From the IMG/VR virus record IMGVR_UViG_3300002835_000249, positions 1-54,738 of that record: a DNA stretch of 54,738 nucleotides. One strand, 5' to 3'. This stretch comes from a virus. Under the pieces are notes generated by a model. That model had not been told where the DNA came from. It saw only the letters and a list, made by a program, of their open reading frames with translations, and did not search any database. Below, one piece after another: positions 3 through 54,738 of this stretch (positions are counted from its first letter, which is position 1; every line of letters begins with the position of its first letter). Made by a program: the position numbers and the translations under genes.

Positions 3-209
3 TATATCAACGAGAACCTTAATAAGGTTAAAACCGAGTTAACTGATTTAGTTAAACAAGTTAATGACAAAACAACTGAAATTAAGTTAAACGAAGTTAT
101 AACGTTGATAAAGCCAATATCTAACAAGTCGTCTGTAAAAGATGAACATTTAGTAGCATTACTTCAATATCAGCAACTAGCTGAGGAAATTAAGAAAGTA
201 AATGGATAA
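3..209 (+). CDS. C-terminal end of an unidentified phage protein (5' truncated)
   Basis: An open frame runs from the window edge to a TAA at 207-209 and gives 68 residues ending in EEIKKVNG. It is rich in Lys, Glu, Asn and Leu, with helix-like spacing (for example KVKTELTDLVKQVNDK) suggesting a coiled coil. The next gene starts inside it with an 8-base overlap, which supports co-translation. In T4-type genomes the portal (gp20) and small prohead core genes lie just upstream of the protease. This could be such a gene, but nothing in the visible part identifies it. Confidence 0.55.
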   Translation, partial: YINENLNKVKTELTDLVKQVNDKTTEIKLNEVITLIKPISNKSSVKDEHLVALLQYQQLAEEIKKVNG

Positions 210-849: not shown

Positions 850-850
850 A

Positions 851-1708: not shown

Positions 1709-1710
1709 TT

Positions 1711-1836
1711 ATGGCAAAAGCAATAAGAGGCGAAAGCCGCAAAGTTACATTTGGTAAACGTAAAGGCGGTAACGCTAAAAAATCATATAACAAACATAGC
1801 CCTCGCCCAAAAGCATATCGTGGTCAGGGCCGTTAA
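1711..1836 (+). CDS. 41-residue highly basic protein
   Basis: The ATG lies 2 bases after the previous stop. The frame encodes 41 residues, of which roughly a third are Lys or Arg (for example VTFGKRKGGNAKKSYNK and a C-terminal YRGQGR). It is too short for standard gene callers but has coding-like composition and fits exactly into the operon gap. Small basic proteins occur at this place in T4-type head clusters (gp67/gp68 region), so it may be a core or DNA-associated head component. Function is unknown. Confidence 0.7.
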   Translation: MAKAIRGESRKVTFGKRKGGNAKKSYNKHSPRPKAYRGQGR

Positions 1837-1843
1837 TATTTAT
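1835..1843 (+). promoter_or_regulatory. ATATTTAT motif, putative late promoter
   Basis: AATATTTAT overlaps the stop of the 41-residue gene and ends 4 bases before the ATG at 1848. The same 4-base spacing occurs before the genes at 22800, 44446 and 50468. Confidence 0.45.
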
Positions 1844-1847
1844 TAGT

Positions 1848-3530
1848 ATGAAAAAACCAATCAACGAAATAGAAAGACTTAAACTTATCGCTGGTTTAAT
1901 TAACGAAATTAATTATAATGACTCAGTATACGGCGTTAAAAGAACAACATTAACTGAGGGTAAAAAGAAAAAAGAAGTTAAAGAATTATCTATAGACGTT
2001 GCTAACCCGTACGAATACCGTATGGGTCTTCAATATGAACTAGAGCAAATGGATGACTATAGTAATGAATCTTTAGAAAAAGCTAAATCAATTGTATTGA
2101 AGAACTTAGCTAAAGATGTTAACTTCTATACTACTTTACTTAACCAAGATCAATCACCTTATAAGTTTGAAGCTCCTGAAACAGACAAACCAGGTATGCA
2201 AGCTAAAGCTGATGGTTATTTAAAGAAAGAATTAAAGAAAGATGCTAAAGCTAATGTACAAGATACATTAGGTAAAAAAGAAGCAGGTAAGAAAAAACCT
2301 AAAGGTGTTAAAGTAATGCCTGATAAAGGTGTAACTGGCTCTGAAAAAACCATTAAAGAGAATCTTATTAATGAGGTAATATTAAAAGTATATCATTATG
2401 ATCCCTCATCAGGTGATTTAGAAGATGTGGATGTTGAATATTTTAGTTCTGAAGAAGAAGCTAAAAAAGCTGCTTTAGCTCATCATTGGCAAATAGCTTT
2501 TGATAATGGAGATACAGATCTTAGTAAAGAAGATTTTATATCTCAAACTAACTTTGATGACTTTGAACCATATAACAACTACGATTATAAAATAGTATCT
2601 GATAAAGGTAATATTAAAGAAGGATTAGAAGTTACACAAGATGATAATCAAATACATATATCAGCTGACAGTGGTGACTATAGTGGATTTGTAGAGAAAG
2701 ATGGTAAGGTAAGTTTTTCTTTAGATTTTGAATTTGATATGGATAGAATAGAGGATGAATTTGGTGAAGAAGGTATTACTGATGATAACTGGAGAGATGT
2801 TTTAGGACCAGACCATGCTTTTGTTAAAATTATAGATAAGATTGGCGGTGATATTGAAGCAGCAGGTGATTATGTTATGATCACTGTTGACGCTGATAAA
2901 TTAAAATCTATTAAAGAAGGATTAGAAGAAGCTTCAAAAGATCCACATGACAAAGCTAAGGTAATGAAAGTGGATGGTAAATTCGAAGTTTATACAACTC
3001 AAGATGGTGAAATAAAAACATTCGATAAAGAAGCTGATGCTAAAGCATTTGCTGATAAATATAACAGTAAGAATGTTAAAGAAGGTTCATTCATGGGTGG
3101 TGTTGACTTAGGTACTTCATTTGACAAAATGAAAGGACAAATGAATGCTGAAGAAGAATTTAATTCATTAATGTCTAAGTATGACTGGTATTATGAAATG
3201 AGCGATGATCCACGTGCTTATGATCGTGGAACAGCTATGAATAGTAAATTAAAGATGTTAGGTAAGCAAATTGGTGTTGATAAAGCTATTGAATTATTCA
3301 ACTCTAAAGCTCCATCTGATAGAAAAATAACATCTTCTTTCTTTATGGAAGGTGAAGATAAGCATTCTAAAATTAAAGAAGCATTAAAAGCTGCTTTAAA
3401 GAAAGCTTTAAAAGAAGAAGATCCAGCTATGGCTAGAATAGAAAAAGACGAAGAAGCCGCTGAAAAAGCTTTAGCACAAATATTAACAAAGAAAGCAGCT
3501 GTATTAGCTAAACCAGGAACCCAAGGATAA
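1848..3530 (+). CDS. Multidomain prohead core/scaffold-associated protein
   Basis: The product has 560 residues, is acidic overall and appears to be built of several small domains. The N-terminus (IERLKLIAGLINE, residues 8-20) has the RL.LAG pattern seen in T4-type scaffold proteins and at the C-terminus of the scaffold gene here (RMQQLAGI). A domain near 370-406 (KVDGKFEVYTTQDGEIKTF) looks like a small alpha/beta unit. Domain junctions carry IKE or VKE (169-171, 256-258, 355-357, 410-412, 509-511) and INE (18-20, 174-176), which match the L/I-x-E rule for gp21 cleavage. The C-terminus is Lys/Ala/Glu-rich and helical. It overlaps the protease gene by 1 base. I infer an internal head protein cut during maturation. 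Confidence 0.7.
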   Translation: MKKPINEIERLKLIAGLINEINYNDSVYGVKRTTLTEGKKKKEVKELSIDVANPYEYRMGLQYELEQMDDYSNESLEKAKSIVLKNLAKDVNFYTTLLNQDQSPYKFEAPETDKPGMQAKADGYLKKELKKDAKANVQDTLGKKEAGKKKPKGVKVMPDKGVTGSEKTIKENLINEVILKVYHYDPSSGDLEDVDVEYFSSEEEAKKAALAHHWQIAFDNGDTDLSKEDFISQTNFDDFEPYNNYDYKIVSDKGNIKEGLEVTQDDNQIHISADSGDYSGFVEKDGKVSFSLDFEFDMDRIEDEFGEEGITDDNWRDVLGPDHAFVKIIDKIGGDIEAAGDYVMITVDADKLKSIKEGLEEASKDPHDKAKVMKVDGKFEVYTTQDGEIKTFDKEADAKAFADKYNSKNVKEGSFMGGVDLGTSFDKMKGQMNAEEEFNSLMSKYDWYYEMSDDPRAYDRGTAMNSKLKMLGKQIGVDKAIELFNSKAPSDRKITSSFFMEGEDKHSKIKEALKAALKKALKEEDPAMARIEKDEEAAEKALAQILTKKAAVLAKPGTQG

Positions 3531-4159
3531 TGAACAAACAAGTATTAATAGAATATTATTCATTTACACCTTCGCCTCGTGCTTTGCATGAGGCAAAGTT
3601 GTCTCCATCTAAAAACTTAATTGTTGAAGGTGTAGTACAACGCGCAGATGCTAAAAACCAAAACGGACGTGTTTATCCTAAAGATACATTAGAACGTGAA
3701 GTAGAAAAATATATAGCTGGACCTATAGCTGAAAATAGAGCATTAGGTGAATTAGACCACCCAGATTCATCAATCATTAACTTAAAGAATGTATGTCATA
3801 ACATTAAGTCTTTATGGTGGGATGGTGATGATTTAATGGGTAAAATTGAAGTATTACCTACACCAAGTGGTAATATATTAAAAGAATTATTTTTAAATAA
3901 TATAACTGTTGGTATTTCTTCTCGTGGTATGGGTTCAGTAAAACCACTAGGTGAAGGAACAATGGAGGTACAAGATGACTTTGAATTATTATGTTGGGAT
4001 TTTGTTTCAACACCATCAACTCAAGGTGCATTTATGAGACCAACAGGACTAAGTGAAAGTTATGTACCTGGTACTCGTTCATTTGGTAAGTATACTAAAG
4101 TAAATAATTTAATTTCAGAAATTATTTGTAGCCAAACAGGTGTTTGCTGCATTAGATAA
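3530..4159 (+). CDS. 21: Prohead core maturation protease, T4 gp21-like
   Basis: The product has 209 residues, close to T4 gp21 (212). Like gp21 it should be a serine protease of the herpesvirus-assemblin-like fold that works inside the prohead, cutting scaffold, core proteins and capsid N-termini after L/I-x-E. Visible hallmarks are the NGRVYP segment near residue 45, the His-containing GELDHPD near 72-78 and the Ser-containing GISSRGMG near 130-137, spaced as in the family. The start overlaps the previous gene's stop by one base. It is followed by a strong terminator at 4191, which separates it from the scaffold gene. Confidence 0.9.
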   Translation: MNKQVLIEYYSFTPSPRALHEAKLSPSKNLIVEGVVQRADAKNQNGRVYPKDTLEREVEKYIAGPIAENRALGELDHPDSSIINLKNVCHNIKSLWWDGDDLMGKIEVLPTPSGNILKELFLNNITVGISSRGMGSVKPLGEGTMEVQDDFELLCWDFVSTPSTQGAFMRPTGLSESYVPGTRSFGKYTKVNNLISEIICSQTGVCCIR

Positions 4160-4190
4160 GCCCCGCTATAGTCTCAGTATTATAGCTCTG

Positions 4191-4219
4191 AACCCAGCCC
4201 CGTAAGGCTGGGTTTCATT
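4191..4219 (+). terminator. Intrinsic terminator after the protease gene
   Basis: A perfect 9-bp stem (AACCCAGCC at 4191-4199, GGCTGGGTT at 4206-4214) with a 6-base loop is followed by a T-rich stretch. It ends the prohead-core operon. Confidence 0.85.
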
Positions 4220-4243
4220 TTTATCGCTTTGAGCACTTTTCAC

Positions 4244-4251
4244 ATATTTAT
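4244..4251 (+). promoter_or_regulatory. ATATTTAT motif, putative late promoter for scaffold and capsid genes
   Basis: The motif lies 30 bases after the terminator and 101 bases before the scaffold ATG. It would give a leader of about 95 bases containing two hairpins. Confidence 0.55.
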
Positions 4252-4264
4252 GAACATCCCACAT

Positions 4265-4351
4265 ATGAGATCTCCAATATCTCATTAATTTAACGTTTTT
4301 AATCTTATATTGCTTCCCCTACTAATAAGCAATCAAAAAGGAGAAAATTCA
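4265..4351 (+). promoter_or_regulatory. Structured scaffold-gene leader with consensus Shine-Dalgarno
   Basis: Two inverted repeats are visible: ATGAGAT (4265-4271) with ATCTCAT (4279-4285), and ATTGCTT (4309-4315) with AAGCAAT (4327-4333). Directly after the second comes AAAGGAG (4337-4343), 9 bases before the ATG. A consensus Shine-Dalgarno is rare in this window, which suggests that scaffold translation is set deliberately high or is regulated. Confidence 0.5.
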
Positions 4352-4352
4352 G

Positions 4353-5690
4353 ATGACAAATCAAGAATTATTCAGTCAAGCAATTGCTGATGCTAAAGCT
4401 GTTCGCGACGCTGCAGTAGCAAATGCTAAAGCCGCTCTTGAAGAAACATTTACTCCAAAAATCATGTCTATGCTTTCAGCTAAATTAAATGAGTTGGAAG
4501 AAGAAGGATTAGAAGAGAAAATGGAAAAAGAAGAAGAAGGCTACAAAAAAGAAGAAGGCCATGAAGCCGAAATTGGTTATGGAGCTGCTTCACAAAAACC
4601 TCAAATTGAAGGTGAAATGGAAGAAGCTGACAACATGGAAGAAGCTGATCTAGAAGAAATCTTAGCCCAACTTGAAGCTGAAGAAAAAGGCAAGAAAGAA
4701 GAAGGCAAAGAAGAAATGGAAGAAGCTAAAAAAGAAGTAGAGGAAGGTAAAAAAGAAGTTGAAGAAGCTAAGAAAAAAGACAACGACAAAAAAGAAAAAG
4801 TTGAAGAGTCTTTAGAAGAAGCTGAAGGTGACGACGAAGTTACTGAACTCACTGTCGATGAGCTTAAAGACATTATCCGTGACGTATTAAAAGACGTAAT
4901 GGGTAGTGGAGAAGAAGCTGGTGAAGAAGAACTTGAAATGGATGATGAAGCTGGTGAAGAAGAGGAAACTGAAGATGAAGAATCTATCAGCCTCGATGAA
5001 TTATTAGCTGAATTAGACAAAGAAGAAGGTAAGAAAGTTGAAGAGAAAAAAGAAGTTGAGGAAAAGAAAGAAAAAGTTGAAGAAGCCACAGAAGTAGAAG
5101 AAGGCATCTCTGATGTTAAAAATTTCTTCTTAAAAGTAGCTGATGACATTAAAAAAGGACTTGGTTTAGCATGTGTTCAAGAATACAATGCTGCTATCAA
5201 AGCTGGTAAATCAGACAAAGAAGCAAGAATCATATATGACACTTGCTTATCTGGTGAAAAAGGCGGATTCCAAGGTCCATCTGTTACTAAAGCTACATCT
5301 GGTATCGCTGAAAAGAAAGATGAAATGGAAGAAGCTAAGAAAGACTTAGAAGAAGCTATTTCTACTATCAAGACTTTGCAAACTGAACTTAACGAAGTTA
5401 ATCTCTTAAATGCGAAACTTCTTTATACAAATAAGATCTTCAAAGCTAAGTCTTTAAATGAAGCTCAAAAAGTTAAGGTATTAAAAGCTTTTGATAAAGC
5501 TACAAATGTAAGCGAAGTTAAAACTGTTTACAACACTTTATCTGAGTCTTTTGAAACTAAAACTAAAACTACAATTAAAGAATCAGTTGGATTTGCTTCT
5601 AAAGCAGTAGGTGTTGCCCCTGCCCAACCGATTGTAGAAGGTGATGCCGCTATTCGCCGTATGCAACAATTAGCGGGAATCGTAAAATAA
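4353..5690 (+). CDS. 22: Prohead scaffolding core protein, T4 gp22-like
   Basis: The product has 445 residues and is extremely rich in Glu and Lys, with long predicted coiled coils (about 45-250 and 320-370), as expected for the major internal scaffold around which the capsid protein assembles and which gp21 later degrades. The position between protease and capsid protein is the T4 order. The C-terminus RRMQQLAGIVK matches the scaffold C-terminal pattern of T4-type phages. It is longer than T4 gp22 (269), mainly through expansion of the Glu/Lys-rich region. A more globular insert with two Cys lies near 255-310. The start is supported by the AGGAG ribosome site. Confidence 0.85.
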   Translation: MTNQELFSQAIADAKAVRDAAVANAKAALEETFTPKIMSMLSAKLNELEEEGLEEKMEKEEEGYKKEEGHEAEIGYGAASQKPQIEGEMEEADNMEEADLEEILAQLEAEEKGKKEEGKEEMEEAKKEVEEGKKEVEEAKKKDNDKKEKVEESLEEAEGDDEVTELTVDELKDIIRDVLKDVMGSGEEAGEEELEMDDEAGEEEETEDEESISLDELLAELDKEEGKKVEEKKEVEEKKEKVEEATEVEEGISDVKNFFLKVADDIKKGLGLACVQEYNAAIKAGKSDKEARIIYDTCLSGEKGGFQGPSVTKATSGIAEKKDEMEEAKKDLEEAISTIKTLQTELNEVNLLNAKLLYTNKIFKAKSLNEAQKVKVLKAFDKATNVSEVKTVYNTLSESFETKTKTTIKESVGFASKAVGVAPAQPIVEGDAAIRRMQQLAGIVK

Positions 5691-5719
5691 ACAATTTAAA
5701 AAACAAAAATTCATTCAAA

Positions 5720-7387
5720 ATGAGTCAAATTCAATCTTTAATCGAATCTGCTAACCCATGGCAGTCACAGCAAGGCGAGGCTTCTCGTTTAGCTAACAAG
5801 TGGGAAAAATCAGGTTTGTTAGAAGGTCTTACTGACTACAACAAATCTAATATGGCTGTAATGCTTGAGAACCAAGCTAAGCAATTAGTTGTTGAGCAGT
5901 CAAACACTGGAACTGGTGGTACTTTTACTCCAGGAACTGGTGAGCAGTGGGCTGGCGTAGCTTTACCACTCGTTCGTAAGGTATTCGGACAAATCGCTTC
6001 TAAAGAATTCGTTTCTGTACAACCAATGAGCTTACCAGCTGGTTTAGTGTTCTTCTTAGATTTCCAATACGGAACTAATAAAGATCCATTCACTTCTGGT
6101 AATTCACTTTATGGTACAGCTTACACTCAAGGTGATTCTGGCTTTGGTAACTTAGCTCAGGGTGGTCTTTATGGTGCTGGCCGTTGGGGTTATTCAGTTA
6201 ACCAATTCTCAGCTTCATTAACTAATGCTACAAATGCAGCTGCTGCTACATTTGATGCTATCAACTGGGATTCTGATTATTCTCAGTCTATTGTTAATAG
6301 CAAGATCATTCAAATTTCTTTCACAACTGGTTCAGCTGGTTTCCCAACTAACTTTGATGTGAATGGTGTTCGTGATCTTTATTTGATCGATGGTACTCCT
6401 GCTTCTCCAGGAACTGTTATCACTTCAGCTACATTATTACCTCAGTTTACTACAATTGCTGGTGGTACAGTTAAGTTATTCGTAACTGCTTCTGGTGTTG
6501 CTGCTGTTAACGCTATCACAGGTGGTATGACTTTATTCTTCAACAAGAAGACTGCTGATAACGCTCGTGGTGATTTCGAAGATGCTGCTGGTGCTGGTTA
6601 TCCAAACGCAGAAAGCAATACAGAAATCGTAATCCCAGAGATCAATGTACAATTACGTTCTGAGACTATTGCTGCTAAAACTCGTAAGTTAAAAGCACAA
6701 TGGACTCCAGAATTCGCTCAAGACTTAAACGCTTACCAAAACTTGGATGCTGAAGCTGAATTAACTTCTATGTTATCAGAGTACATCTCTTTAGAGATCG
6801 ACTTAGAAATCATGGATATGTTAATCCAGAACGCTCCAATCGTTGAACAATGGTCAGCTAAAGTGGGCGGTACTGTAACTGCAGGTTCATCTAACATTGC
6901 TTACAACACATCAGGTGTTTATTACACTCAGATGACTTGGTTCCAAACTTTAGGTATCAAATTACAAAAAGTTTCTAACCAAATTCACCAACGTACTTTA
7001 CGTGGTGGTGCTAATTTCATGGTAGTTTCTCCAACTGTAGCTACTATCCTTGAGTCAATTCCAGGATTTGCAGCTGATACAGACGGTGCAGCTGACAACA
7101 TGAAGTATGCATTCGGCGTACAGAAAATTGGTCAATTAAACAGCCGTTACAAAGTTTACAAGAATCCTTACATGATCGAGAATACCATCTTAATGGGATT
7201 CCGTGGTAACCAATTCTTAGAAACTGGTGCTGTTTATGCTCCATATATTCCATTGATCATGACTCCATTAGTGTACGATCCAAATACCTTCACTCCAAGA
7301 AAAGGTATCATGACTCGTTACGCGAAGAAAATGGTACGTCCTGAATTCTACGGTAAGGTATTTATTGCTGACTTACAAGTTATCTAA
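5720..7387 (+). CDS. 23: Major capsid protein, T4 gp23-like
   Basis: The product has 555 residues (T4 gp23 precursor is 521). The N-terminal region KWEKSGLLEGL (about 28-38), the SNMAVMLENQAKQLVVE segment (41-57), and ALPLVRKVFGQIASKEFVSVQP followed by LPAGLVFFLDFQYG near 83-117 are classic for this HK97-fold family. The gp21 protease probably removes about the first 57 residues, for which VVE is a candidate cut site. A variable insertion of roughly 100 residues (about 185-290, Gly/Thr/Ala-rich) probably forms a surface domain. The C-terminus (RKGIMTRYAKKMVRPEFYG) is also conserved. A strong terminator follows, consistent with a very highly expressed gene. Confidence 0.95.
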   Translation: MSQIQSLIESANPWQSQQGEASRLANKWEKSGLLEGLTDYNKSNMAVMLENQAKQLVVEQSNTGTGGTFTPGTGEQWAGVALPLVRKVFGQIASKEFVSVQPMSLPAGLVFFLDFQYGTNKDPFTSGNSLYGTAYTQGDSGFGNLAQGGLYGAGRWGYSVNQFSASLTNATNAAAATFDAINWDSDYSQSIVNSKIIQISFTTGSAGFPTNFDVNGVRDLYLIDGTPASPGTVITSATLLPQFTTIAGGTVKLFVTASGVAAVNAITGGMTLFFNKKTADNARGDFEDAAGAGYPNAESNTEIVIPEINVQLRSETIAAKTRKLKAQWTPEFAQDLNAYQNLDAEAELTSMLSEYISLEIDLEIMDMLIQNAPIVEQWSAKVGGTVTAGSSNIAYNTSGVYYTQMTWFQTLGIKLQKVSNQIHQRTLRGGANFMVVSPTVATILESIPGFAADTDGAADNMKYAFGVQKIGQLNSRYKVYKNPYMIENTILMGFRGNQFLETGAVYAPYIPLIMTPLVYDPNTFTPRKGIMTRYAKKMVRPEFYGKVFIADLQVI

Positions 7388-7466: not shown

Positions 7467-8135
7467 ATGCGTGAACCAAATCGTGAGAGGAAGAATGACA
7501 TTAAATCTATTAATGCGTTACAGTTAAATGAAGAACAAAAAGAAGCAAAACGATTAATAGTAGAAAATCAAGTAGTAATTATAACAGGTAGAGCGGGATC
7601 AGGTAAATCATTAGTATGTGCTCAAGCCGCCTTAGATTTTCTTAAGAAAAAACAAATTAGTTGTATATATAATACTCGCGCAGCTATTGAAGTAGGTAAA
7701 TCATTAGGATTTCTACCAGGTGATATTAATGGTAAGTTTGATCCATACATGGAAGCATTAGTTGAAAATCTAGTTAAATGTTGTTCAAATAAAAATGAAG
7801 TACCTGAATTAATTGAGGAAGGTAAAGTTAAAGCTATGCCTGTACAATTTATTAGAGGTAAAACTATAGACGACATACTAATTGTAGAAGAGGCTCAAAA
7901 CCTAACTAAAGGCGAAATGTTAGCTATATTAACTCGTTTAGGTAAAACAGGTAAAATAGTGATTAACGGCGATAATGAGCAAACTGATATCAAAACACCT
8001 ACTGGTGAAATAAACGGGTTATCTTACGCTATTGAATTATCTAAAAAGATTGAAGAAATTAAGTGGATTAAACTAAAAGAAAACCACAGATCTGATTTAG
8101 TAGGTAAAATACTTGAATACGAATACGGGAAATAA
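7467..8135 (+). CDS. phoH: PhoH-like P-loop ATPase
   Basis: The product has 222 residues. A Walker A motif GRAGSGKS spans residues 41-48, and a Walker B-like segment DDILIVEEAQN ends at residue 145. The C-terminal LKENHRSDLVGKILE is typical of the PhoH/superfamily 1-like family, which is common in large marine and freshwater phages. The family couples ATP hydrolysis to nucleic acid work, and its role in phages is not settled. The gene stands alone between the capsid terminator and the neck genes, with its own promoter motif. Confidence 0.88.
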   Translation: MREPNRERKNDIKSINALQLNEEQKEAKRLIVENQVVIITGRAGSGKSLVCAQAALDFLKKKQISCIYNTRAAIEVGKSLGFLPGDINGKFDPYMEALVENLVKCCSNKNEVPELIEEGKVKAMPVQFIRGKTIDDILIVEEAQNLTKGEMLAILTRLGKTGKIVINGDNEQTDIKTPTGEINGLSYAIELSKKIEEIKWIKLKENHRSDLVGKILEYEYGK

Positions 8136-23201: not shown

Positions 23202-26200
23202 ATGGCTAATGAATTTGTTGCTCGCAATGGTATCATTGCGTTGAATGACTCTCAAATAACCGGATCGTTAAGTGTTGGCAGTAATGTTACTGCCTCTAAT
23301 GCGCTTATCACAGGTACAATAACTGCCCAAACTTTATTAGTACAGAATATTACCTCATCTAGAGATTATGTGACGGGTTCTACTGTATTTGGATCATCAC
23401 TTTCTAACACACATCAATTTACAGGTTCTGTTTCAATAACAGGAAGCTTAACAATTCCATCAGTACCATTAGGTACTACTGAAACTAATATTTTAGTAAT
23501 AGATGCTAATGGTGGATTCAAATATAGAAATAATTTAAGTTTACAAGGTGCTCAAGGTGCTACTGGTCCACAAGGTGCTCAAGGAGCCCAAGGTGCAGTT
23601 GGTCCTCAAGGTGCCCAAGGTGCTGTAGGACCTCAAGGCGCCCAAGGCGCAACTGGACAAAGAGGTGGTGTACCTTATAACTTCTCTACATCTACATTAA
23701 ATGCAGATCCTGGTAATGGTGTAGTTGCTTATAGCAGTGCTACAATTAGTTCAGTTACATCAATCTATATAGATAACTTAGACCAACTTGGAAATACCCA
23801 AACTGCGTGGTATAACACATGGGATGACTCTACCAATATAGCAAATAGAGGTACACTTACTTTTTATAGTAGAGATACAGGAACTGTAGTTAATATTTTT
23901 AATGTTACAGATGTTAATGCTAAAATAGGATATTTTCAAGTTACTGTTAGTTATGTAAGTGGTACTTTACCAGCTAACGGTGAACAATTAGCAGTAGCAT
24001 TTTCTAGAACAGGTAATTTAGGAGCTCAAGGTGCCCAAGGCGCTACAGGTCCACAAGGTGCACAGGGTGCTCAAGGCGCTACAGGTCAACGTGGTGGAGT
24101 ACCTTATAACTTTACAACATCAACTACAAACGCTGATCCAGGCGCTGGTGTGGTAGCATATAATAATGGAGTAATTGGCTCTGTATCAGCACTTTATATT
24201 GATAACGTAGACCAATTAAGTAATTCTCAAGCAGCATGGTTTGACACTTGGGATGATAGTACCACTACAGCCACCAGAGGTGTAATTACATTATATAGTA
24301 GAGATACTGGAACAGTAGTAAACCAATTTCAAGTCACTGGTGCTGTAACTGCTAATGTAGGTTATTACACTATACCAGTGTCTTATATCAGTGGTACATT
24401 ACCAGCTAATAGTGCTCAATTAGCAATTCAATTCAGTAGAACTGGTAACTTAGGAGCCCAAGGCGCTCAAGGAGCTACAGGTCCTCAAGGTTCACAGGGT
24501 GCCCAAGGTGCCCAAGGTGCAACAGGACCTCAAGGTATACAGGGTATTCAAGGTGCTCAGGGAGCAGTAGGCCCACAAGGTGCTCAGGGAGCTCAAGGAG
24601 CTCAAGGGGCAGTTGGACCTCAAGGTGCCCAAGGTGCTCAAGGAGCACAGGGAGCTGTTGGGCCGCAAGGTATACAAGGTATACAAGGCGCACAGGGTGC
24701 AACAGGCCCACAAGGCGCTCAAGGTGCTCAAGGAGCCCAAGGAGCTACAGGTCCTCAAGGAGCCCAAGGAGCTACAGGTCCTCAAGGTGCCCAAGGTGCT
24801 ACAGGACAAAGAGGAGGTGTACCTTACAATTTCTCAACTACAACAACAAACACAGACCCAGGTAATGGTGTGCTTCAGTATAACAATGGTGTTATAGGAT
24901 CTGTTTCTGCAATTTATATAGATAATTTAGATCAACTTGGAACTACACAAACTGGATGGTATGATACATGGGATGACAGTACAACTACTGCCACAAGAGG
25001 TGTTTTAACTCTTTATAGTAGAGATACAGGCACTGTAGTAAACCAGTTTCAAGTTACTGGAGCTGTAACTGCTAATACAGGATACTACACAATTCCTGTT
25101 TCATATATAAGTGGTACTTTACCTGCTAATGGTGTTTTACTTGCTATATCTTTTTCTAGAACTGGTAACTTAGGCGCTCAAGGCGCTCAAGGTGCAACAG
25201 GACCTCAAGGTGCTCAAGGCGCTCAAGGAGCTCAAGGTGCTACAGGTCCTCAAGGTATACAAGGCATCCAAGGTATACAAGGTATACAAGGCGCACAGGG
25301 TGCAACTGGACCTCAAGGTACCCAAGGCGCACAAGGTGCACAAGGTGCTGTAGGACCTCAAGGTATTCAAGGTATCCAAGGTATTCAAGGTATACAAGGA
25401 GCTCAAGGTGCTACAGGTCCACAGGGTGCCCAAGGCGCTCAAGGAGCTCAAGGCGCAACAGGACCTCAAGGTATCCAAGGTATTCAAGGAGCTCAAGGCG
25501 CAACAGGACCTCAAGGTATCCAAGGTATTCAAGGAGCTCAAGGCGCAACTGGACCACAAGGTATCCAAGGTATTCAAGGAGCTCAAGGTGCTACAGGCCC
25601 TCAGGGTGCCCAAGGATCTCAAGGTGCTCAAGGCGCCCAAGGCGCAACTGGTCCACAAGGTATTCAAGGTATTCAAGGCGCCCAAGGTGCTACAGGTCCA
25701 CAGGGTGCCCAAGGCGCACAGGGAGCCCAAGGTGCTACAGGTCCTCAGGGAGCCCAAGGCGCCCAAGGAGCTCAAGGCGCTACAGGACCTCAAGGTATTC
25801 AAGGTATTCAAGGTGCCCAAGGTGCTACAGGACCTCAGGGTGCCCAAGGTGCACAGGGAGCCCAAGGTGCCCAAGGAGCAACTGGGCCTCAAGGTGCACA
25901 AGGCGCTCAGGGAGCCCAAGGCGCGACTGGACCTCAAGGCGCTCAAGGTAACCAAGGCGCTCAGGGAGCCCAAGGTGCACAAGGTATTCAAGGTATTCAA
26001 GGTATTCAAGGTATTCAAGGCGCTCAAGGTTCACAAGGTGCCCAAGGTTCTCAAGGTGCACAAGGTGCAACTGGGCCTCAAGGAGCTCAAGGTGCTACTG
26101 GTCCAAATGCAGGTATAACTTCATATACAAATCCAGGCGATAATAGAGTATTAACTTCAGTTAACTCATCTACTATCAATGCTGAGACAAATTTAACATT

Positions 26201-28310
26201 TGATGGATCTACATTAACTGTATCTGGAAGTACAGCAAATAAAGTATCAGTTATAGGTTCAGGTAGTGGTGTAAATACAACTTTATTCTCAATAGACGGA
26301 GCTAATGGTAGATTATTTGAAGTAACAGATGATTTATCTAACTCAATATTCTCAGCTAATACAATTGCTGGTTTACCTGTAATTGAAGCATTCGCTGATA
26401 ACACAGTTAAATTAGGTAAGTTTGGAGCTGAAGCTATTGTAATATCAGGAAGTAACAATACAACTCAGATTAGTGGTTCTATTAAATTACCGAGTTTAGG
26501 ATCTACATCTGATACTACAGTTGTTACTTTTAATACAACAACAAAAACTATTGGATATAATACAGTAGCAGGTCCTCAAGGAGCTCAAGGTGCACAGGGT
26601 GCTCAAGGTGCACAGGGTGCTCAAGGTGCTCAAGGTATTCAAGGTATTCAAGGTAACCAAGGAGCCCAAGGCTCTCAAGGTGCACAGGGTGCTCAAGGTG
26701 CTCAAGGTATTCAAGGTATTCAAGGTAACCAAGGAGCCCAAGGCTCTCAAGGTGCCCAAGGAGCCCAAGGTGCAACAGGCCCTCAAGGTGCCCAAGGTGC
26801 ACAAGGCGCTCAAGGAGCCCAAGGCGCGACAGGCCCTCAAGGTGCTCAGGGTAGCCAAGGCGCTCAAGGAGCACAGGGTGCCCAGGGAGCATCTGGCGCC
26901 ACTATCTTAGGTAGTAATAATACATGGACTGGTGCTAACTATTTCCAAAGCAATCTTGGTGGATATGCTGGTGTTTTAAGTGGTCCTCCTCTTCAAGCAT
27001 ATTCAACATCTAACAACTCAGCATTTATGTCTTTTCATAAAGGAGGAGTATATGCTGTTAATATGGGATTAGATGCTGATGATGTTTTAAGAATTGGTGG
27101 ATGGAGTGCTTCAGCTAATAGATGGCAACTTGACATGAGCGGTAATAATACTGTTGCTAGTTCTTTCAGAGCCCCAATATTCTATGATTCGGATAATACA
27201 GGATATTATTTAAATCCTGCTAGTACAACTAATTTAAATACTCTTTATGTTAATGATTGGTACTACTTAAATGGAAGTAATGGATTATATTTTAATTCTT
27301 ATAGTTATGGTTTGCGTTCAGCACATGGTGAAGGAAACTCATATGGTAACGCTACAACACACAATGTTGGTAGAAATGGATGGAGTGGATGGGGATTATA
27401 TACACGATTCGCATGGATGACTGATATCAATAATGGTGGTGGTACTATGGGTATGCATGATAATAGTCTTGGTTGGGTATGGAGATGGATACCAGATTCG
27501 TATTTTATTGTAGATAGAGGATATAGCCAATTTGCTAATAGTGCTCGTGCTCCAATATTCTATGATTCAGATAATACAGGATATTATTTAAATCCTGCTA
27601 GTACAAGTTTTCTTTATCAACTAGACACAGCTAACAATGGTGGTACAGCGATTTTTATAGGTAATCAAAGTGTTTCAACATCCAATCCTCTTAGAATTAA
27701 CTTCCATACAGATGGTGATTTAAACTATTATATAGGAAAACCAGCTGGTGCATGGACTCAACCTCTTAATGTTTGGTTTTATACCGGTGTGACTATAGCA
27801 TCTCACCATTCATATAATGCTGGTACTAGAATATATAATATAGCTACAGGTAATACTGTAGCTAACTTTGGTAATGGTGGAGATAATATTTATCTAAACT
27901 ATGCTACATATTGTCCTATAATGTATGATTCAGCTAATACAGCATATTACTTTGATGGTTCAGCTACAGGTGACTCAATTCGTGTAGCTGGTGATGTAGT
28001 AGCTTATTACTCAGATGAACGTTTAAAAGATATTAAATGTAATATATCAGATGCTTTATCTAAAGTAATGACTTTAAATGGTTTCTATTATGAACCAAAT
28101 AAAATAGCTCAGTCATTTGGATATGAGAAAAAATTACAAGTAGGATTATCAGCCCAACAAGTAGAAACTGTTTTACCTGAAGTTATTAAAGATGCTCCTA
28201 TAGGAAATGGATATAAAACATTAGATTATTCTAAATTAGTACCATTACTTGTTGAAGCCATCAAAGAACAACAAAAACAAATTGATGAGTTAAAAACTAA
28301 ATTAAAATAA
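23202..28310 (+). CDS. Collagen-like tail fibre with C-terminal S74 intramolecular chaperone
   Basis: The product has 1702 residues. The N-terminal module (about 28-85) is shared with the giant fibre. Gly-x-y collagen stretches ([15 protein letters not shown]) lie at about 116-153, 274-296, 418-536, 658-968 and 1124-1233. Between them are three homologous ~120-residue domains, each starting RGGVPYNF (154-273, 297-417, 537-657), and one different globular domain (about 969-1123). The C-terminal region has two [19 protein letters not shown] units and ends in a Peptidase_S74 endosialidase-type chaperone: SDERLKDI begins at Ser1604, the expected self-cleavage point, and [20 protein letters not shown] forms the final helix. 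It is a trimeric fibre that folds with the chaperone and then sheds about 99 residues. Confidence 0.9.
23285..23455 (+). repeat. Shared fibre module, copy 3
   Basis: This stretch encodes [20 protein letters not shown] and [13 protein letters not shown], the same module found twice in the giant fibre. Confidence 0.7.
23547..23657 (+). repeat. Collagen-like Gly-x-y block 1
   Basis: About 37 codons of GAQ, GAT, GPQ and GAV triplets precede the first RGGVPYNF domain. Confidence 0.85.
24453..24809 (+). repeat. Collagen-like Gly-x-y block 3
   Basis: About 119 codons of uninterrupted Gly-x-y lie between the second and third RGGVPYNF domains. A shorter block of 23 codons lies at 24021-24089. Confidence 0.85.
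25173..26105 (+). repeat. Collagen-like Gly-x-y block 4 (longest)
   Basis: About 311 codons of Gly-x-y (some 103 triplets, chiefly GAQ, GPQ, GIQ and GAT) use varied synonymous codons. The DNA repeat is imperfect while the protein repeat is strict, which suggests selection on the protein. Confidence 0.88.
26571..26900 (+). repeat. Collagen-like Gly-x-y block 5
   Basis: About 110 codons of Gly-x-y. It includes two nearly identical stretches encoding [18 protein letters not shown], which suggests recent duplication. Confidence 0.85.
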
Positions 28311-48771: not shown

Positions 48772-50028
48772 ATGTATTACATTGTTGAAACAGAAGAACA
48801 ACTTAAATACTTAGGCAAACCAGAATCAAACAAATGTTTTGTTAATATTATCACAACAAATGATAATCGCCATCCTTCTTTAACTAAACCATGTTTAGTA
48901 TATTATAATGATGGAGAAAAAGGTTATATATTACCTATCGACCATAGTGAAGCATTTAAATTAGATTGGTTAACAGTCAAACAATTTATATATAGCATTG
49001 AGAAAGTATATGTGTTAGACAAGAAATTTCATTTGTATTTCTTATCAGGTGATAATTTAATTGATGTTAATTTTAATGATTATATTGATGAATCACAATT
49101 TGATACTAAAGTACATATTGACTTTAATCGTGAAAAATATTATATAAATGAATTAAACACACTGATACCAATACCTAAACATTATGAGAAATGGGAAAAA
49201 ATATACACTAGTGTGATAGATAAATTACTTCTTTCTAAGTGGCATGGTGACAATTCATTTTTAAATTCTCATTATACTGAAGTATTTTATCAGATTGAAA
49301 AAAACGGTATAGGAATTGATCCACGTAAGTTTAACAAGCACTTTGAAACTACTTGGAAAGATAATTCGATTTACGGGAATACAGTTTATACACAATATAA
49401 TTTATATAATGTAACTACTCGTCCTTCAAACGCATTTAATGGCGTTAATTTCGCGGCTTTACCTAAGGACGGCGCACGTGAATCATTTGAACCAAATAAT
49501 TATATATTTGTTGAATTTGATTATAGTGCTTACCATCCACGAATTATTGCTAAGGCAATTGGTTATACATTTGAAGGTGAACCATATGATGAAATACCTA
49601 AAGAAATAATGTTTCAAAACATATATGGTGGTATTAGAGATGAATATGCATGGTTTCCATTTTTTAGTAAACTAAATGAGTGGTTAGATAAACAATGGCA
49701 GGATTTTAAACATACCAACCATTTAAAATTACCTAGTGGTCCTAATATATGGGCTGGTCAAATAAAAGAACCAAATAAAAATAAAATATTAAGCTATCTA
49801 ATCCAGGCTTACGAAACATATTATAACACAATGACATTACAGCGTGTGTTAAAACTACTATATAGTAAAAAAACTAAAATAGTATTATACACATATGATT
49901 CAATATTACTGGATGTAGCTAAAGAAGATATTAAACTATTACCAAAAATTAAACAAGAATTAGAAGCTGATGGTTTTCCAACTTGCATGAGTATTGGCGA
50001 GAACTATGGTGCTTTAATTAAAAAATAA
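48772..50028 (+). CDS. Compact, divergent family A DNA polymerase
   Basis: The product has 418 residues, about half of a usual Pol I. The palm motifs are clear: TTRPSNAFNGVNFAALP (215-231, the TGR.S...NLQN.P region), motif A FDYSAYHPR with catalytic Asp250 and Arg257, motif B K277EIMFQNIYGG with the Lys and Tyr-Gly spacing of the O helix, LIQAYETYYN (343-352) and motif C YTYDSILLD with Asp376. The Arg that normally sits four residues before the motif B Lys is Asp273, and motifs A and B are only 27 residues apart. The N-terminal 160 residues resemble a 3'-5' exonuclease fold (CFVNIITTN) but lack its acidic residues. It precedes the gp32/UvsX module. Confidence 0.8.
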   Translation: MYYIVETEEQLKYLGKPESNKCFVNIITTNDNRHPSLTKPCLVYYNDGEKGYILPIDHSEAFKLDWLTVKQFIYSIEKVYVLDKKFHLYFLSGDNLIDVNFNDYIDESQFDTKVHIDFNREKYYINELNTLIPIPKHYEKWEKIYTSVIDKLLLSKWHGDNSFLNSHYTEVFYQIEKNGIGIDPRKFNKHFETTWKDNSIYGNTVYTQYNLYNVTTRPSNAFNGVNFAALPKDGARESFEPNNYIFVEFDYSAYHPRIIAKAIGYTFEGEPYDEIPKEIMFQNIYGGIRDEYAWFPFFSKLNEWLDKQWQDFKHTNHLKLPSGPNIWAGQIKEPNKNKILSYLIQAYETYYNTMTLQRVLKLLYSKKTKIVLYTYDSILLDVAKEDIKLLPKIKQELEADGFPTCMSIGENYGALIKK

Positions 50029-50029
50029 C

Positions 50030-50037
50030 ATATTTAT
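50030..50037 (+). promoter_or_regulatory. ATATTTAT motif overlapping the start codon at 50036
   Basis: Its last two bases are the first two of the ATG, as at 39655. Confidence 0.35.
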
Positions 50038-50455
50038 GACATGGAATTTAACAATAGAGGAATTGGCAAACAAGTTATTCGCAACCTTCTCAAAGAAGGA
50101 AGACATAAATCAAACAATTGAGGTTATTACAGCCCGCTATTCTATCTTATTCAATAAAATTTTTATTTTAGAGTCTAAGGATAGTGATGAATTTATCTGC
50201 ACATATAATATTGATCCAGGTAATTTAAGTACAACCACTGTATTACCTAATACTATATTATTACATCGCAAGAAAGAGTCAAATACATTATATACTATTA
50301 ACGCTTTGAATACTTTAATCAAAACGTTGAATAATGGTTACGCTGATCCTAATTATAAAGTTGAGTGGAACGATTACAAGAATACCATTTTATTAACAAA
50401 CGGTCCAGATCTTCGCAAGTTAGAAACAACTATCTATAAGATAGTTAATCTCTAA
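50036..50455 (+). CDS. 139-residue hypothetical protein
   Basis: An N-terminal helix (WNLTIEELANKLFATFSKKE) is followed by mixed strands (YSILFNKIFILESKDSDEFI, TTVLPNTILLHRKKESNTLY) and a final helix. The pattern of alternating strands and two helices suggests a compact alpha/beta fold. It lies 7 bases after the polymerase, so it may be a replication accessory protein. I do not recognise the family. Confidence 0.68.
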   Translation: MTWNLTIEELANKLFATFSKKEDINQTIEVITARYSILFNKIFILESKDSDEFICTYNIDPGNLSTTTVLPNTILLHRKKESNTLYTINALNTLIKTLNNGYADPNYKVEWNDYKNTILLTNGPDLRKLETTIYKIVNL

Positions 50456-50467: not shown

Positions 50468-50842
50468 ATGAAACTAATAGACATTTTAAAAGAAGCAGTT
50501 GATCCATTTTCTCAATATAAGCTTTTATCTAAAAAAAGAGAAAGAGATATGTTTGGATCTTCTACTATATATGAATATCTTTTAAATGATGAAGATTATA
50601 AAACACCATCAGGTTTAAAATTTAATTTAAAAACTATAGGTTATGCTATGGCTGAGGGAAGAGAAAAAAATCTTTACCATATAAAAACAGATGTTTACTA
50701 TAAAGGAAAATTACTAACAGAACCTAGTGGTATTCCTGGAGCACGTGATGTAGTTTTTTCTGTTAATAAAGCTAAGAAATGGCTAGATAAGAATGGAGAA
50801 GATTTTATTAAAGGAAAAAAATATCAATACAAAAGTACTTAA
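50468..50842 (+). CDS. Small basic protein, candidate internal (ejected) head protein
   Basis: The product has 124 residues, Lys-rich. The first ten residues, MKLIDILKEA, look like the T4 capsid-targeting sequence (MKTYQEFIAEA), which gp21 removes after the x-I/L-x-E site. ILKE at 6-9 would be the cut. The body has a mixed fold (YGL-type strands, GLKFNLKTIGYAMAEGRE, VFSVNKAKKWLDKNGEDF). It is separated from its neighbours by a promoter motif and a terminator. The targeting signal is an inference from similarity by eye; if it is wrong, this is just a small unknown protein. Confidence 0.65.
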   Translation: MKLIDILKEAVDPFSQYKLLSKKRERDMFGSSTIYEYLLNDEDYKTPSGLKFNLKTIGYAMAEGREKNLYHIKTDVYYKGKLLTEPSGIPGARDVVFSVNKAKKWLDKNGEDFIKGKKYQYKST

Positions 50843-50852
50843 TAACAAAATA

Positions 50853-50880
50853 GAGCCTTCAGAAATGAAGGCTCAATTTA
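50853..50880 (+). terminator. Intrinsic terminator-like hairpin before gene 32
   Basis: GAGCCTTC (50853-50860) pairs with GAAGGCTC (50867-50874). Only a short AATTT follows, so termination may be partial. Confidence 0.6.
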
Positions 50881-50940: not shown

Positions 50941-51744
50941 ATGGATTTAGCACAAATCAAGCAACGTATGCAATCGTTGCAAAACAAAGGTAAAGGCGGC
51001 GGAAACAAAGATGACCGTGCCAAGAATTTCTGGGTTCCACCAGTTGGTAAATCAGTGATTCGTATTGTTCCATCTAAATTCAACAAGGCAAATCCGTTCA
51101 AAGAAGTAATGTTCCATTATGGTATTGGAAACAAAACCATGTTGTCATTAACTAACTTTGGAGAAAAAGATCCAATTGTTGAGTTTGCACAGCAACTTCG
51201 TAAAACTAGTGACAAAGAAAATTGGTCATTAGCTAAGAAGATTGAACCTAAAATGAGGGTGTTTGTACCTGTTATTGTCCGTGGTGAAGAAGACAAAGGT
51301 GTTCGCATGTGGCAGTTTGGTAAAGAAATGTATCTCGAATTGTTAGGTATTGCTGAAGATGAGGATATCGGAGACTACACCGACATTATGGAAGGTAGAG
51401 ATTTAACAGTTGATACAGTTGGTCCTGAAGTTACAGGTACTAAGTTCAACAAATCATCTATTCGTATTAAACCGAAAACTAGCCCATTGACTGAAGACAA
51501 TGAAGTTATTAAGAAATGGATTAGTGAACAGCCTGATGTTTTATCACTCTATAAAAAGTATGAGTTTGATGAAATGAAGACTATGTTAATGGAATGGTTA
51601 GAACCATCTGAGGACAATGGTGAAGAAACAACTGAAGAAGTTACTGAAACACCAGTACAAGAAGCTCCTAAGGCTAACTATACCCTTAACACTAAGAAAA
51701 AAGGGTTTGATGAAGATGAATTTGATGAACTATTTAACAAGTAA
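50941..51744 (+). CDS. 32: Single-stranded DNA-binding protein, T4 gp32-like
   Basis: The product has 267 residues (T4 gp32 is 301). The N-terminal region is basic (MQSLQNKGKGGGNKDDRAKN), followed by the OB-fold start FWVPPVGKSVIRIVPSKFN, then FHYGIGNKTMLSLTNFGEKD and KMRVFVPVIVRGEEDKGVRM. The C-terminus is acidic and ends GFDEDEFDELFNK, the tail that recruits replication partners. The Cys residues that bind zinc in T4 gp32 are absent. It coats ssDNA for replication and recombination. It is 5 bases from uvsX. Confidence 0.9.
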   Translation: MDLAQIKQRMQSLQNKGKGGGNKDDRAKNFWVPPVGKSVIRIVPSKFNKANPFKEVMFHYGIGNKTMLSLTNFGEKDPIVEFAQQLRKTSDKENWSLAKKIEPKMRVFVPVIVRGEEDKGVRMWQFGKEMYLELLGIAEDEDIGDYTDIMEGRDLTVDTVGPEVTGTKFNKSSIRIKPKTSPLTEDNEVIKKWISEQPDVLSLYKKYEFDEMKTMLMEWLEPSEDNGEETTEEVTETPVQEAPKANYTLNTKKKGFDEDEFDELFNK

Positions 51745-51749
51745 TTAAA

Positions 51750-52859
51750 ATGGCTAAATCTGCTAAAAGTGTAAATGCAAGTGTATCACAAGCAATTAAG
51801 GGTACATTTGATCTTGATAAGTTCAAGAAAACTAAAAAGCTAGACCAATCGTCTAACTTTAAAACCCAAAAGTGGATTCCATTTTCACCAGCTGTACAAG
51901 ACGCTCTCTCAATACCAGGCGTGCCTATGGGACATATTACCATAGCTAGAGGCGGCTCGGATACAGGTAAAACAACATTAATGATTGAAACAGCGGTGAA
52001 TGCTCAGAAAATGGGCATTCTACCGGTGTTTATCATTACTGAGATGAAATGGGATTTCGCTCATGCTCAAAAAATGGGCTTTCAATGTGAAGCTGAAGCT
52101 GATGAAGCTACAGGTGAAGTAATAAATTACAAAGGTTTTTTTCTATATGTTGATAGATCAACTCTTAATTCAATTGAGGATGTAGCAGCATTTATGGCTG
52201 ACATTTTAGATGAACAAAAGAAAGGTAACTTACCTCATGATTTATTATTCTTATGGGATTCAGTAGGTTCTATACCATGTGATATGAGTATTGAACAAGG
52301 TAAAAACAATCCAATGTGGAACGCTGGAGCAATGGCTACACAGTTTGGTAATTTTATCAATCAGAAAATCCCACTATCACGTAAAGAATCATATCAGTTT
52401 ACTAACACATTCTTTGTAATTAATAAAACAGGTGTTCAACCAGCTTTAACTCCTATGAGTCAACCTCGTATGACTAATAAAGGTGGTAATACAATGTATT
52501 GGGACGCCTCAATTGTAATTACATTTGGTAATGTTACAAATAGTGGTACAAGTAAGATTCACGCTCAACATAAGGGTAAGAAAGTAGAATTTGCTAAACG
52601 TACTAAGATCGCTATCGATAAAATTCATGCTGATTGTGGAATTGCTACCACATCAACAGTAATTGTTACACCTCATGGATTCATTCCAGATGACAAAGAT
52701 GATGAGAAAGCTTATAAAGCAGCTCATGCTCATGAATGGTTTGGTGAGGGAGTAAAAATTGATGAGATAAAGGTTACTGAGGATAATAGTGAGTGGGAAG
52801 AAAGTAGTAAGATATCTCCAATGATTGAAATCGATAATGACGATGAACAAGACGTTTAA
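51750..52859 (+). CDS. uvsX: UvsX/RecA-like recombinase
   Basis: The product has 369 residues (T4 UvsX is 391). Walker A is GGSDTGKTT (about 68-76), with the catalytic Glu region at FIITEMKWDF and a Walker B-like LLFLWDSVGS near 165-174. The DNA-binding loop region (QPRMTNKGGNTMYWDASIVI) and acidic C-terminus (DNDDEQDV) also fit. It forms filaments on ssDNA coated by gp32 for strand exchange and recombination-dependent replication. It sits between gp32 and RNase H genes. Confidence 0.92.
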   Translation: MAKSAKSVNASVSQAIKGTFDLDKFKKTKKLDQSSNFKTQKWIPFSPAVQDALSIPGVPMGHITIARGGSDTGKTTLMIETAVNAQKMGILPVFIITEMKWDFAHAQKMGFQCEAEADEATGEVINYKGFFLYVDRSTLNSIEDVAAFMADILDEQKKGNLPHDLLFLWDSVGSIPCDMSIEQGKNNPMWNAGAMATQFGNFINQKIPLSRKESYQFTNTFFVINKTGVQPALTPMSQPRMTNKGGNTMYWDASIVITFGNVTNSGTSKIHAQHKGKKVEFAKRTKIAIDKIHADCGIATTSTVIVTPHGFIPDDKDDEKAYKAAHAHEWFGEGVKIDEIKVTEDNSEWEESSKISPMIEIDNDDEQDV

Positions 52860-53871
52860 AGATATACTGTCCAATATTAAGAATACTAAGCAAGAAGCCT
52901 TGTATTTAAACAGTAAGGTACTCTTAGTAGACTCAATGAATACCTTTTTAAGAAGTTTTGCCATGATCAATCATATGAATCCAAGTGGAGCCCACATCGG
53001 TGGGCTCACTGGGTTCTTAAAATCGATTGGTTTTGCAATTCGTCATATTAAGCCTACAAGAGTTATTTTAGTATTTGATGGCAATGGTAGCACTACTAAT
53101 AAAAAGAATCTATACCCAGAATATAAAGCACATAGAAAACTACAACGTATAACTAATTGGGATGGTTTCGATGGTAAAGAAGATGAATCAGCCTCTATTG
53201 AAAATCAAATGTTACGTTTAGTAGAGTATTTAAAGTGTTTACCTGTTGATTTATTATCTATTGATAAAGTAGAAGCTGATGATGTTATAGGTTATATAAC
53301 AAATAAATTAGATGGTGAAGTACATATAATGTCTGCTGACCAAGATTTTCTACAATTAGTAAATGATAAAGTAACAGTGTACTCACCTATTAAGAAGAAA
53401 TTCTATACACCTAAATTAGTAAAGGAAGAGTATGGTTTATATCCTCAAAACTTTATTAATAAAAAAATATTAATGGGTGATGATTCAGATAATATACCTG
53501 GTGTTAAAGGATTAGGACCTAAAAAACTATTTAAATTATTCCCAGAATTAGAGGCTAATTTTGCAGTCACATTAGATAGTATATTTACTAAGTCTGAAGA
53601 GTTAGTTAACGAACATGGATTATATGGTGATATAGTTAACTTTAAAAAACAACTACTTATCAATCAACAACTAATGGATTTGTCTGATCCTGACTTACCA
53701 GAAGACAGTTTAGAAGAAATAGAACAAGTATTAACAAATGAACCTAATAGATTAGATAAGTTACATTTCATAAAGTTTTACAATGAAGACAGATTAGGTA
53801 ATTCAATCCCTAACGTAGAGATTTGGCTTAACGAAATTTTTTCTTATCTTCAGGTATATAAATTAAAATAG
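52837..53871 (+). CDS. rnh: RNase H / 5'-3' exonuclease (T4 Rnh-like, FEN family)
   Basis: The product has 344 residues from the ATG at 52837. ATG 52843 is equally possible, and a TTG at 52825 is unlikely. Acidic metal-binding clusters are in order: LLVDSMNTFLRSF, VFDGNG, VEADDVIGYI, SADQDFLQLV and GDDSDNIPGVKGLG, the last beginning the helix-three-turn-helix. It should remove RNA primers and flaps on the lagging strand, as T4 Rnh does. The start overlaps uvsX by 23 bases, and the next gene begins 2 bases after its stop. Confidence 0.9.
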   Translation: MTMNKTFKDILSNIKNTKQEALYLNSKVLLVDSMNTFLRSFAMINHMNPSGAHIGGLTGFLKSIGFAIRHIKPTRVILVFDGNGSTTNKKNLYPEYKAHRKLQRITNWDGFDGKEDESASIENQMLRLVEYLKCLPVDLLSIDKVEADDVIGYITNKLDGEVHIMSADQDFLQLVNDKVTVYSPIKKKFYTPKLVKEEYGLYPQNFINKKILMGDDSDNIPGVKGLGPKKLFKLFPELEANFAVTLDSIFTKSEELVNEHGLYGDIVNFKKQLLINQQLMDLSDPDLPEDSLEEIEQVLTNEPNRLDKLHFIKFYNEDRLGNSIPNVEIWLNEIFSYLQVYKLK

Positions 53872-53873
53872 TT

Positions 53874-54738
53874 ATGGTTGCTTTTAGCAAATTAAATCAG
53901 TATGGTTTGAATTTTCAAACCAAGGTTATTAGCTCGCTTTTAAAGAATAAAAAATTCTTACTTAATATTCGTGATGTTGCTACACCAGAATATTTTGATA
54001 ACCAAGCACACCAATGGTTAGTAGAAACAATTATTAAGTATTTTGATAAATGGCATGCTACTCCTACATTAGACACTTTACATATTGAGGTAAAGAAAAT
54101 AGATAATGAAGTATTAAAAACATCAGTAGTAGAACAATTAAAAGAAGCATATAAAGCAACAAATGAAGATGCTGAATATGTTGAAGCTGAATTTAGTAAT
54201 TTTTGTAAAAACCAACAACTAAAGAAAGCATTATTAACATCTGTAGATTTACTACAATCTGGAATGTATGATGATATTAGACATTTAATTGATTCAGCGT
54301 TAAAAGCAGGTATGGATAAGAATTTAGGCCATGAATATGAAAAAGATGTTGAAGACAGATATCGTGAAGAATATAGAAATCCAGTTGCCACACCTTGGCC
54401 TGGTATTAATCAGTTACTACAAGGTGGACTAGGTGGAGGAGATTTTGGACTAATATTTGGAGGTCCTGGTGGTGGTAAGAGTTGGTCATTAATTGCTTTA
54501 GGAGCAGCAGCTGTACAAGCTGGATTTAATGTTAATCACTATACACTTGAGTTAAGTGAAGCATATGTTGGTAAACGATATGATGCTTGTTTTACTAACA
54601 TATCAGTAAATAACATTCAAAACCATAGAACAGACGTTGAAAAAACAGTATCTAATTTATCTGGTAAATTGGTTATTAAAGAATATCCAACAGGTAAAGC
54701 AACTATAAGTACTATTGAAGCACATATTCAAAAATGTA
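53874..54738 (+). CDS. 41: Replicative DnaB-type helicase, T4 gp41-like (3' truncated)
   Basis: The frame starts at 53874 and stays open to the window end (288 codons visible; T4 gp41 is 475). The N-terminal helical domain (YGLNFQTKVISSLLKNKKFL) is followed by the RecA-type core: TPWPGINQLLQGGLGGGDFG, Walker A GGPGGGKSW (about 196-204) and HYTLELSEAYVGKRYDACFT, the H1a region of DnaB-type helicases. It unwinds the fork in front of the polymerase and works with a primase not seen here. It lies directly after rnh. Confidence 0.9.
   Translation, partial: MVAFSKLNQYGLNFQTKVISSLLKNKKFLLNIRDVATPEYFDNQAHQWLVETIIKYFDKWHATPTLDTLHIEVKKIDNEVLKTSVVEQLKEAYKATNEDAEYVEAEFSNFCKNQQLKKALLTSVDLLQSGMYDDIRHLIDSALKAGMDKNLGHEYEKDVEDRYREEYRNPVATPWPGINQLLQGGLGGGDFGLIFGGPGGGKSWSLIALGAAAVQAGFNVNHYTLELSEAYVGKRYDACFTNISVNNIQNHRTDVEKTVSNLSGKLVIKEYPTGKATISTIEAHIQKC

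Follow-up and report, generated by a model that had tools for sequence, protein, structure and literature searches.

The closest described relative of the gene considered here is gp001 of Flavobacterium phage immuto (NC_055915, KNV73_gp001), which is annotated as 'DNA polymerase family A', has 34% identity to it and carries the same motifs. The gene, which we call mini-PolA (protein P0001), lies in a 54.7-kb genome fragment, the whole of which is referred to below as the window. In immuto it is followed by genes in the same order as in the window, that is small ORFs, SSB, recombinase, 5'-3' exonuclease and helicase, and immuto also resembles the window's phage in having a full polymerase elsewhere (gp199). 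Immuto gp001 differs in that helix O1 of the fingers is kept, and the companion replicase of immuto differs in being a full family A enzyme and not gp43. As the immuto homologue already carries its annotation, the family A call for mini-PolA is not new; the open-licence literature that was searched yielded no account of a family A polymerase lacking its thumb, nor of such a second polymerase in phages.

The Klenow fragment shares with mini-PolA the palm motifs A, B and C, an exonuclease-like N-terminal domain and the equivalents of Arg668, Lys758, Phe762, Tyr766 and Gln849, but has a thumb, exonuclease acids, Arg754, Glu710 and an HDE motif C, all of which mini-PolA is without. T4 gp43 comes from the same type of phage, and a homologue of it is encoded by the same species as mini-PolA, yet gp43 is a full-length, proofreading enzyme of family B. 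Rhodothermus phage RM378 is likewise T4-related and has an unusual divided polymerase, although by our reading of the motifs this is a family B enzyme whose exonuclease and polymerase parts are encoded by different genes, and mini-PolA was not found in the RM378 genome. The idea that RM378 set an earlier example of a family A polymerase among T4-type phages was rejected, its polymerase reading as family B. Y-family translesion polymerases have small fingers, lack proofreading and are encoded alongside a replicase, features by which mini-PolA may be regarded as analogous to them, but their fold and motifs are different from the family A palm of mini-PolA.

Family A features kept and lost in mini-PolA

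Mini-PolA is encoded on the + strand at 48772..50028 by an ORF of 418 codons (418 aa) that starts with ATG and contains no internal stops, exactly as a preliminary description of this DNA had it, and the opposite strand of 48772-50028 has many stops. Comparison with seven relatives gives a dN/dS of 0.15-0.23, and PHROG_17 'DNA polymerase' matches the single sequence at 2e-5. As read from the sequence, it is a genuine gene, beyond chance.

Its placement as a reduced family A DNA polymerase draws on this match and on a family profile, a structure model and residue conservation. From IMG/VR 75 relatives were gathered, and a search profile built from 25 members matches the Klenow fragment (E 1e-6), aligning with it motif by motif. 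This match came via the family profile, with no match found in a PDB search using P0001 as a single sequence. A Pfam search with P0001 alone did not match DNA_pol_A either, which does match 12 of the 25 relatives (best 4.6e-11), the immuto member being above the cut-off. The AlphaFold2 model of mini-PolA (pLDDT 84.9, pTM 0.84) finds only family A enzymes in the PDB among the matches listed, all 50 of them with E from 6e-15 to 1e-12, Pol theta being one, and the viral matches that are named are PolA-type polymerases. Such a structure model had been proposed as a check in the preliminary description, and with family A palm enzymes as the only PDB matches listed, together with the profile and the conserved residues, its Pol I-type assignment is borne out; it is virtually certain that mini-PolA has the fold of a family A DNA polymerase.

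In the profile-Klenow alignment D250 corresponds to D705, H255 to E710, K277 to K758, F281 to F762, Y285 to Y766, Q345 to Q849 and D376 to D882, the columns being named by E. coli Pol I residue numbers (D705, E710, R754, K758 etc.). Conservation was counted over 248 homologues, with some columns covered by only 245 or 246 of them. R217, D250, H255, K277, F281, Q345 and E176 are invariant in the 248. The equivalent of Pol I R668, Arg217 (49420..49422, + strand, as are all the sites given here), is identified by its motif (TxRP = TGR), and Asp250 (49519..49521) is the motif A metal ligand. Motif B comprises Lys277, Phe281 and Tyr285-Gly286 (49600..49629), with the Tyr differing in a single homologue (247/248), and motif C is Tyr375-Asp376 (49894..49899), the equivalent of H881-D882, with the Asp present in all 246 sequences that cover it. 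The motif sites had thus been correctly picked out beforehand as D250 (A), K277 with the later Tyr-Gly (B) and D376 (C).

A number of other parts are lost or altered. The N-terminal domain (residues 1-165, limits approximate; 48772..49266, + strand) has in the model a strand-helix order resembling that of the Pol I exonuclease domain, but the columns of the exonuclease DxE and of the later Asp residues are not conserved among the 248 homologues, so that the missing catalytic acids pointed out in the preliminary description are a feature of the whole family. In place of the Pol I thumb there is a short linker (residues 177-216; 49300..49419, + strand), the thumb region taking up ~43 profile positions against ~131 residues in Klenow, i.e. 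~88 fewer. The spacing from E176 to R217 is 23-43 in every homologue, and the long thumb helices are absent from the AlphaFold2 model. Judging by the sequence alignment and the secondary structure of the model the thumb appears to be lost, and its absence makes mini-PolA a reduced variant of family A.

The O-helix Arg (R754) column holds Asp273 in P0001, four residues before K277, as had been read from the sequence at the outset. This Arg is kept in 4 of 245 homologues and lost in 241, and is treated here as a variable residue whose loss does not decide family A membership. Motif C reads YD[SA] in the family in place of HDE, with the His replaced by Tyr and the Glu by Ser or Ala. A distance of only 27 residues between motifs A and B had also been singled out, which is right for P0001, although it is not a family trait. 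The spacing is 27-28 in 40 of 245 homologues and 37-48 in the others. The short form is seen only in the clade of the window and in a sister group, both of which have lost helix O1 of the fingers.

At the steric-gate position of Pol I (E710) there is His255 (49534..49536, + strand), and a His is found here in 248/248 homologues. Changing the steric-gate Glu in Pol I relaxes the exclusion of rNTPs, which raises the idea that the invariant His relaxes discrimination against ribonucleotides and that mini-PolA makes or extends RNA-containing primers. Phe281 is retained, however, a DnaG primase is annotated in immuto, and none of the family A DNA polymerases known to us works as a primase, so a role with RNA primers seems very unlikely, and the identification of mini-PolA as a primase was set aside as improbable given the DnaG of immuto.

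With the thumb, the O-helix Arg, the steric-gate Glu and the acids of the exonuclease all gone, mini-PolA could also be taken for a pseudo-polymerase, a structural or DNA-binding member of a recombination complex that carries out no DNA synthesis. This is improbable, as a dead enzyme is not expected to retain invariant catalytic residues, yet both metal-binding Asp and the equivalents of Lys758, Phe762, Arg668 and Gln849 are invariant in the 248 homologues (D376 in the 246 covered). The catalytic residues are thus under strong selection, and mini-PolA is very likely to be catalytically active.

The main replicase and the polymerases that accompany mini-PolA

Mini-PolA heads a replication block and no match to PF00136 (DNA polymerase family B) was found in the 54.7-kb window, which could suggest that mini-PolA is itself the main replicase of the phage; the window is, however, a fragment. 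A second contig, G006 (32 kb), overlaps it over 5,878 bp at 99.3% DNA identity and carries ~21 kb downstream of mini-PolA a complete family B polymerase (gp43) of 862 aa with both polymerase and exonuclease domains. The gene after it, of 243 aa, occupies the place of the clamp gp45, a label given by position, the gene having no match in a Pfam search.

The same kind of PolB is found in the near relatives G013 and G029. It is divided into two ORFs in G001 and G002, with the first half found in G015, G017 and G028. Single PolB genes are present in phage Mel-JY01 (an 855-aa frame) and in 12 of 14 further long records, and immuto and G030 each encode a full family A enzyme (770-778 aa). The remaining two of these 14 records, which may be incomplete, showed neither a PolB nor a full PolA, and the same holds for some of the shorter contigs.

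Since a full-length polymerase is present as well in the same phage species and in most of the long relatives, we are highly confident that mini-PolA is not the main replicase, and the opposite reading is barely credible. The preliminary description had left two alternatives, the replicase of this lineage or a second, proofreading-free polymerase. With a full gp43 in the overlapping contig the first of these falls and the family call, as had been foreseen for this case, stands. The second is favoured by sequence and model and is to be read as a prediction.

In immuto the full PolA (NC_055915.1 37898-40231) lies where relatives have gp43, and likewise in G030, which is an exchange of the replicase within one phage group. 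As the full polymerase may be either PolB or PolA among the relatives, mini-PolA is kept across changes of replicase type.

The divided PolB genes have features of their own. In G001 (L327 = G001:C1:10500-18500, 114-5890) the gene is split before motif C into ORFs of 586 aa and 307 aa, and the ~3 kb between the halves holds four ORFs that by eye are oxygenase-, cupin-, halogenase- and methyltransferase-like. There is no obvious homing endonuclease among these four, which look like metabolic or modification genes. The 484-kb phage LR756508.1, an unannotated record, has the same mini-PolA block (L159 9476-16055) and a PolB in at least two pieces.

The gene block and the proposed role of mini-PolA

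Directly downstream of mini-PolA, and on the same + strand, are a companion gene, g139 (139 aa; 50036..50455), and an ORF of 124 aa (50468..50842) that is confined to near relatives, with only 4 matches. These are followed by genes for a gp32-like ssDNA-binding protein (50941..51744; PHROG_1192, 1e-21), a UvsX-like recombinase (51750..52859; PHROG_97, 6e-18), a FEN-type 5'-3' exonuclease that is T4 Rnh-like (52837..53871; PHROG_107, 5e-35) and whose immuto counterpart is annotated as a 5'-3' exonuclease, and the start of a gp41/DnaB-like helicase, an open frame at 53874..54738 that leaves the window. The helicase label follows from its position and from the relatives, in which a helicase is annotated at the same place. 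The view that mini-PolA heads a gp32/UvsX/Rnh/gp41 block is therefore upheld, by PHROG matches for the first three and by position and annotation for the last. In contigs that are long enough the order is an upstream gene, mini-PolA, g139, gp32, uvsX and FEN exonuclease.

Between the 124-aa ORF and gp32 there is a perfect hairpin of 9 bp at 50853-50874 (GAGCCTTC...GAAGGCTC), which is terminator-like on the - strand and is not conserved among relatives. A promoter scan gave fewer promoter-like sites than the shuffle mean.

The link of g139 with mini-PolA is a close one. Amongst metagenomic loci of sufficient length g139 is found at 67 of 68 mini-PolA loci and mini-PolA at 48 of 52 g139 loci. 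Of the four g139 loci without it, L220 in G054 has a DNA_pol_A match as large as mini-PolA immediately outside the stretch analysed. Searches of the family libraries with g139 gave nothing reliable, and whilst its model is confident (pLDDT 90), a fold search with that model gave no significant structural match to any known fold.

It is rather probable that mini-PolA is an accessory polymerase whose synthesis, during recombination or the filling of gaps, is short, distributive and free of proofreading. As a second, family A polymerase with a family A palm and most of the residues that contact dNTP and template, it would make short DNA tracts, in a distributive manner and with no proofreading, at gaps or at intermediates of recombination, which would be prepared by the gp32, UvsX and FEN exonuclease encoded just downstream. 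A weak grip on DNA and low processivity would follow from the missing thumb, and low fidelity from the missing exonuclease, with g139 perhaps compensating for the absent thumb. Together with the separate FEN exonuclease, mini-PolA could thus fill gaps as Pol I does in cells. That it acts at such sites is suggested by the fixed neighbours gp32, UvsX and FEN exonuclease, and a role drawn from gene order is indirect. Without a thumb, binding of DNA may fail, and the O-helix Arg, steric-gate Glu and HDE of motif C, important in Pol I, are lost, which counts against this reading.

The main rival is a role in translesion synthesis, for which the fit is almost as good. Here the reduced fingers, together with the lack of thumb and proofreading, would leave an open active site able to tolerate a damaged template, in a manner convergent with the Y-family. 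The exonuclease acids are absent, the O-helix Arg is lost in 241/245 homologues, the fingers are shortened and the same phage has a full, proofreading replicase. Family A does have translesion members; one of them is Pol theta, which is among the fold matches of the model. Set against this, no lesion-specific feature was identified in mini-PolA, and its site beside gp32, UvsX and the FEN exonuclease is no less suited to gap filling or recombination. A translesion polymerase is considered unlikely, and synthesis in gap filling or recombination is somewhat favoured over lesion bypass.

A broader and tentative proposal, somewhat less likely than not, is that mini-PolA stands for a separate class of accessory polymerases in phages, two-part enzymes in which a thumbless family A core would be given its grip on DNA, or its recruitment, in trans by g139, serving recombination, gap filling or lesion bypass and being retained while the main replicase swaps between families B and A.

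If active, mini-PolA would be a natural, thumbless polymerase of family A with an unusually small size, and would offer a test of how much of a 'hand' a polymerase needs, of its fidelity and sugar selectivity and of lesion bypass. Such activity would also mean that T4-type phages retained an accessory polymerase while the replicase itself was exchanged.

Spread of the family and further features of the window

Two scans of IMG/VR gave at least 583 and at least 588 confirmed relatives of mini-PolA, so the family is larger than the set examined here. Thus >580 IMG/VR stretches encode mini-PolA, in contrast to only 6 of 50,697 deposited phage records with a full-length homologue, and precisely these six records also contain g139. 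The homologue set includes pairs that are only 26-32% identical, and amongst its most distant members is a mini-PolA of 452 aa in LR756508.1, an uncultured phage. The homologue in Mel-JY01 is labelled 'hypothetical', the label that one of the six deposited records gives its copy.

A cellular origin of mini-PolA was considered and rejected, as only five MAG contigs carry the gene and these are most likely phage DNA. Three of the contigs with mini-PolA (L322, L324 and L326, from genome_contigs) are binned to MAGs of Flavobacteriales, Winogradskyella and Flavobacteriaceae. The MAG-binned contigs are probably phage DNA, and these bins give a hint of Bacteroidota hosts for part of the group.

Elsewhere in the window, an ORF of 1702 aa at 23202-28310 contains long runs of collagen-like GAQGAQGPQGIQG repeats, resembles a tail-fibre chaperone domain in its C-terminal part, and is probably a tail fibre. 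A PhoH-like ATPase gene, assigned by eye, is situated at 7467-8135, directly 3' of the gene for the major head protein. A PhoH-like gene after the major head protein has been reported for Far-T4 phages (PMC4360716), and immuto has a PhoH-like gene in the same arrangement.
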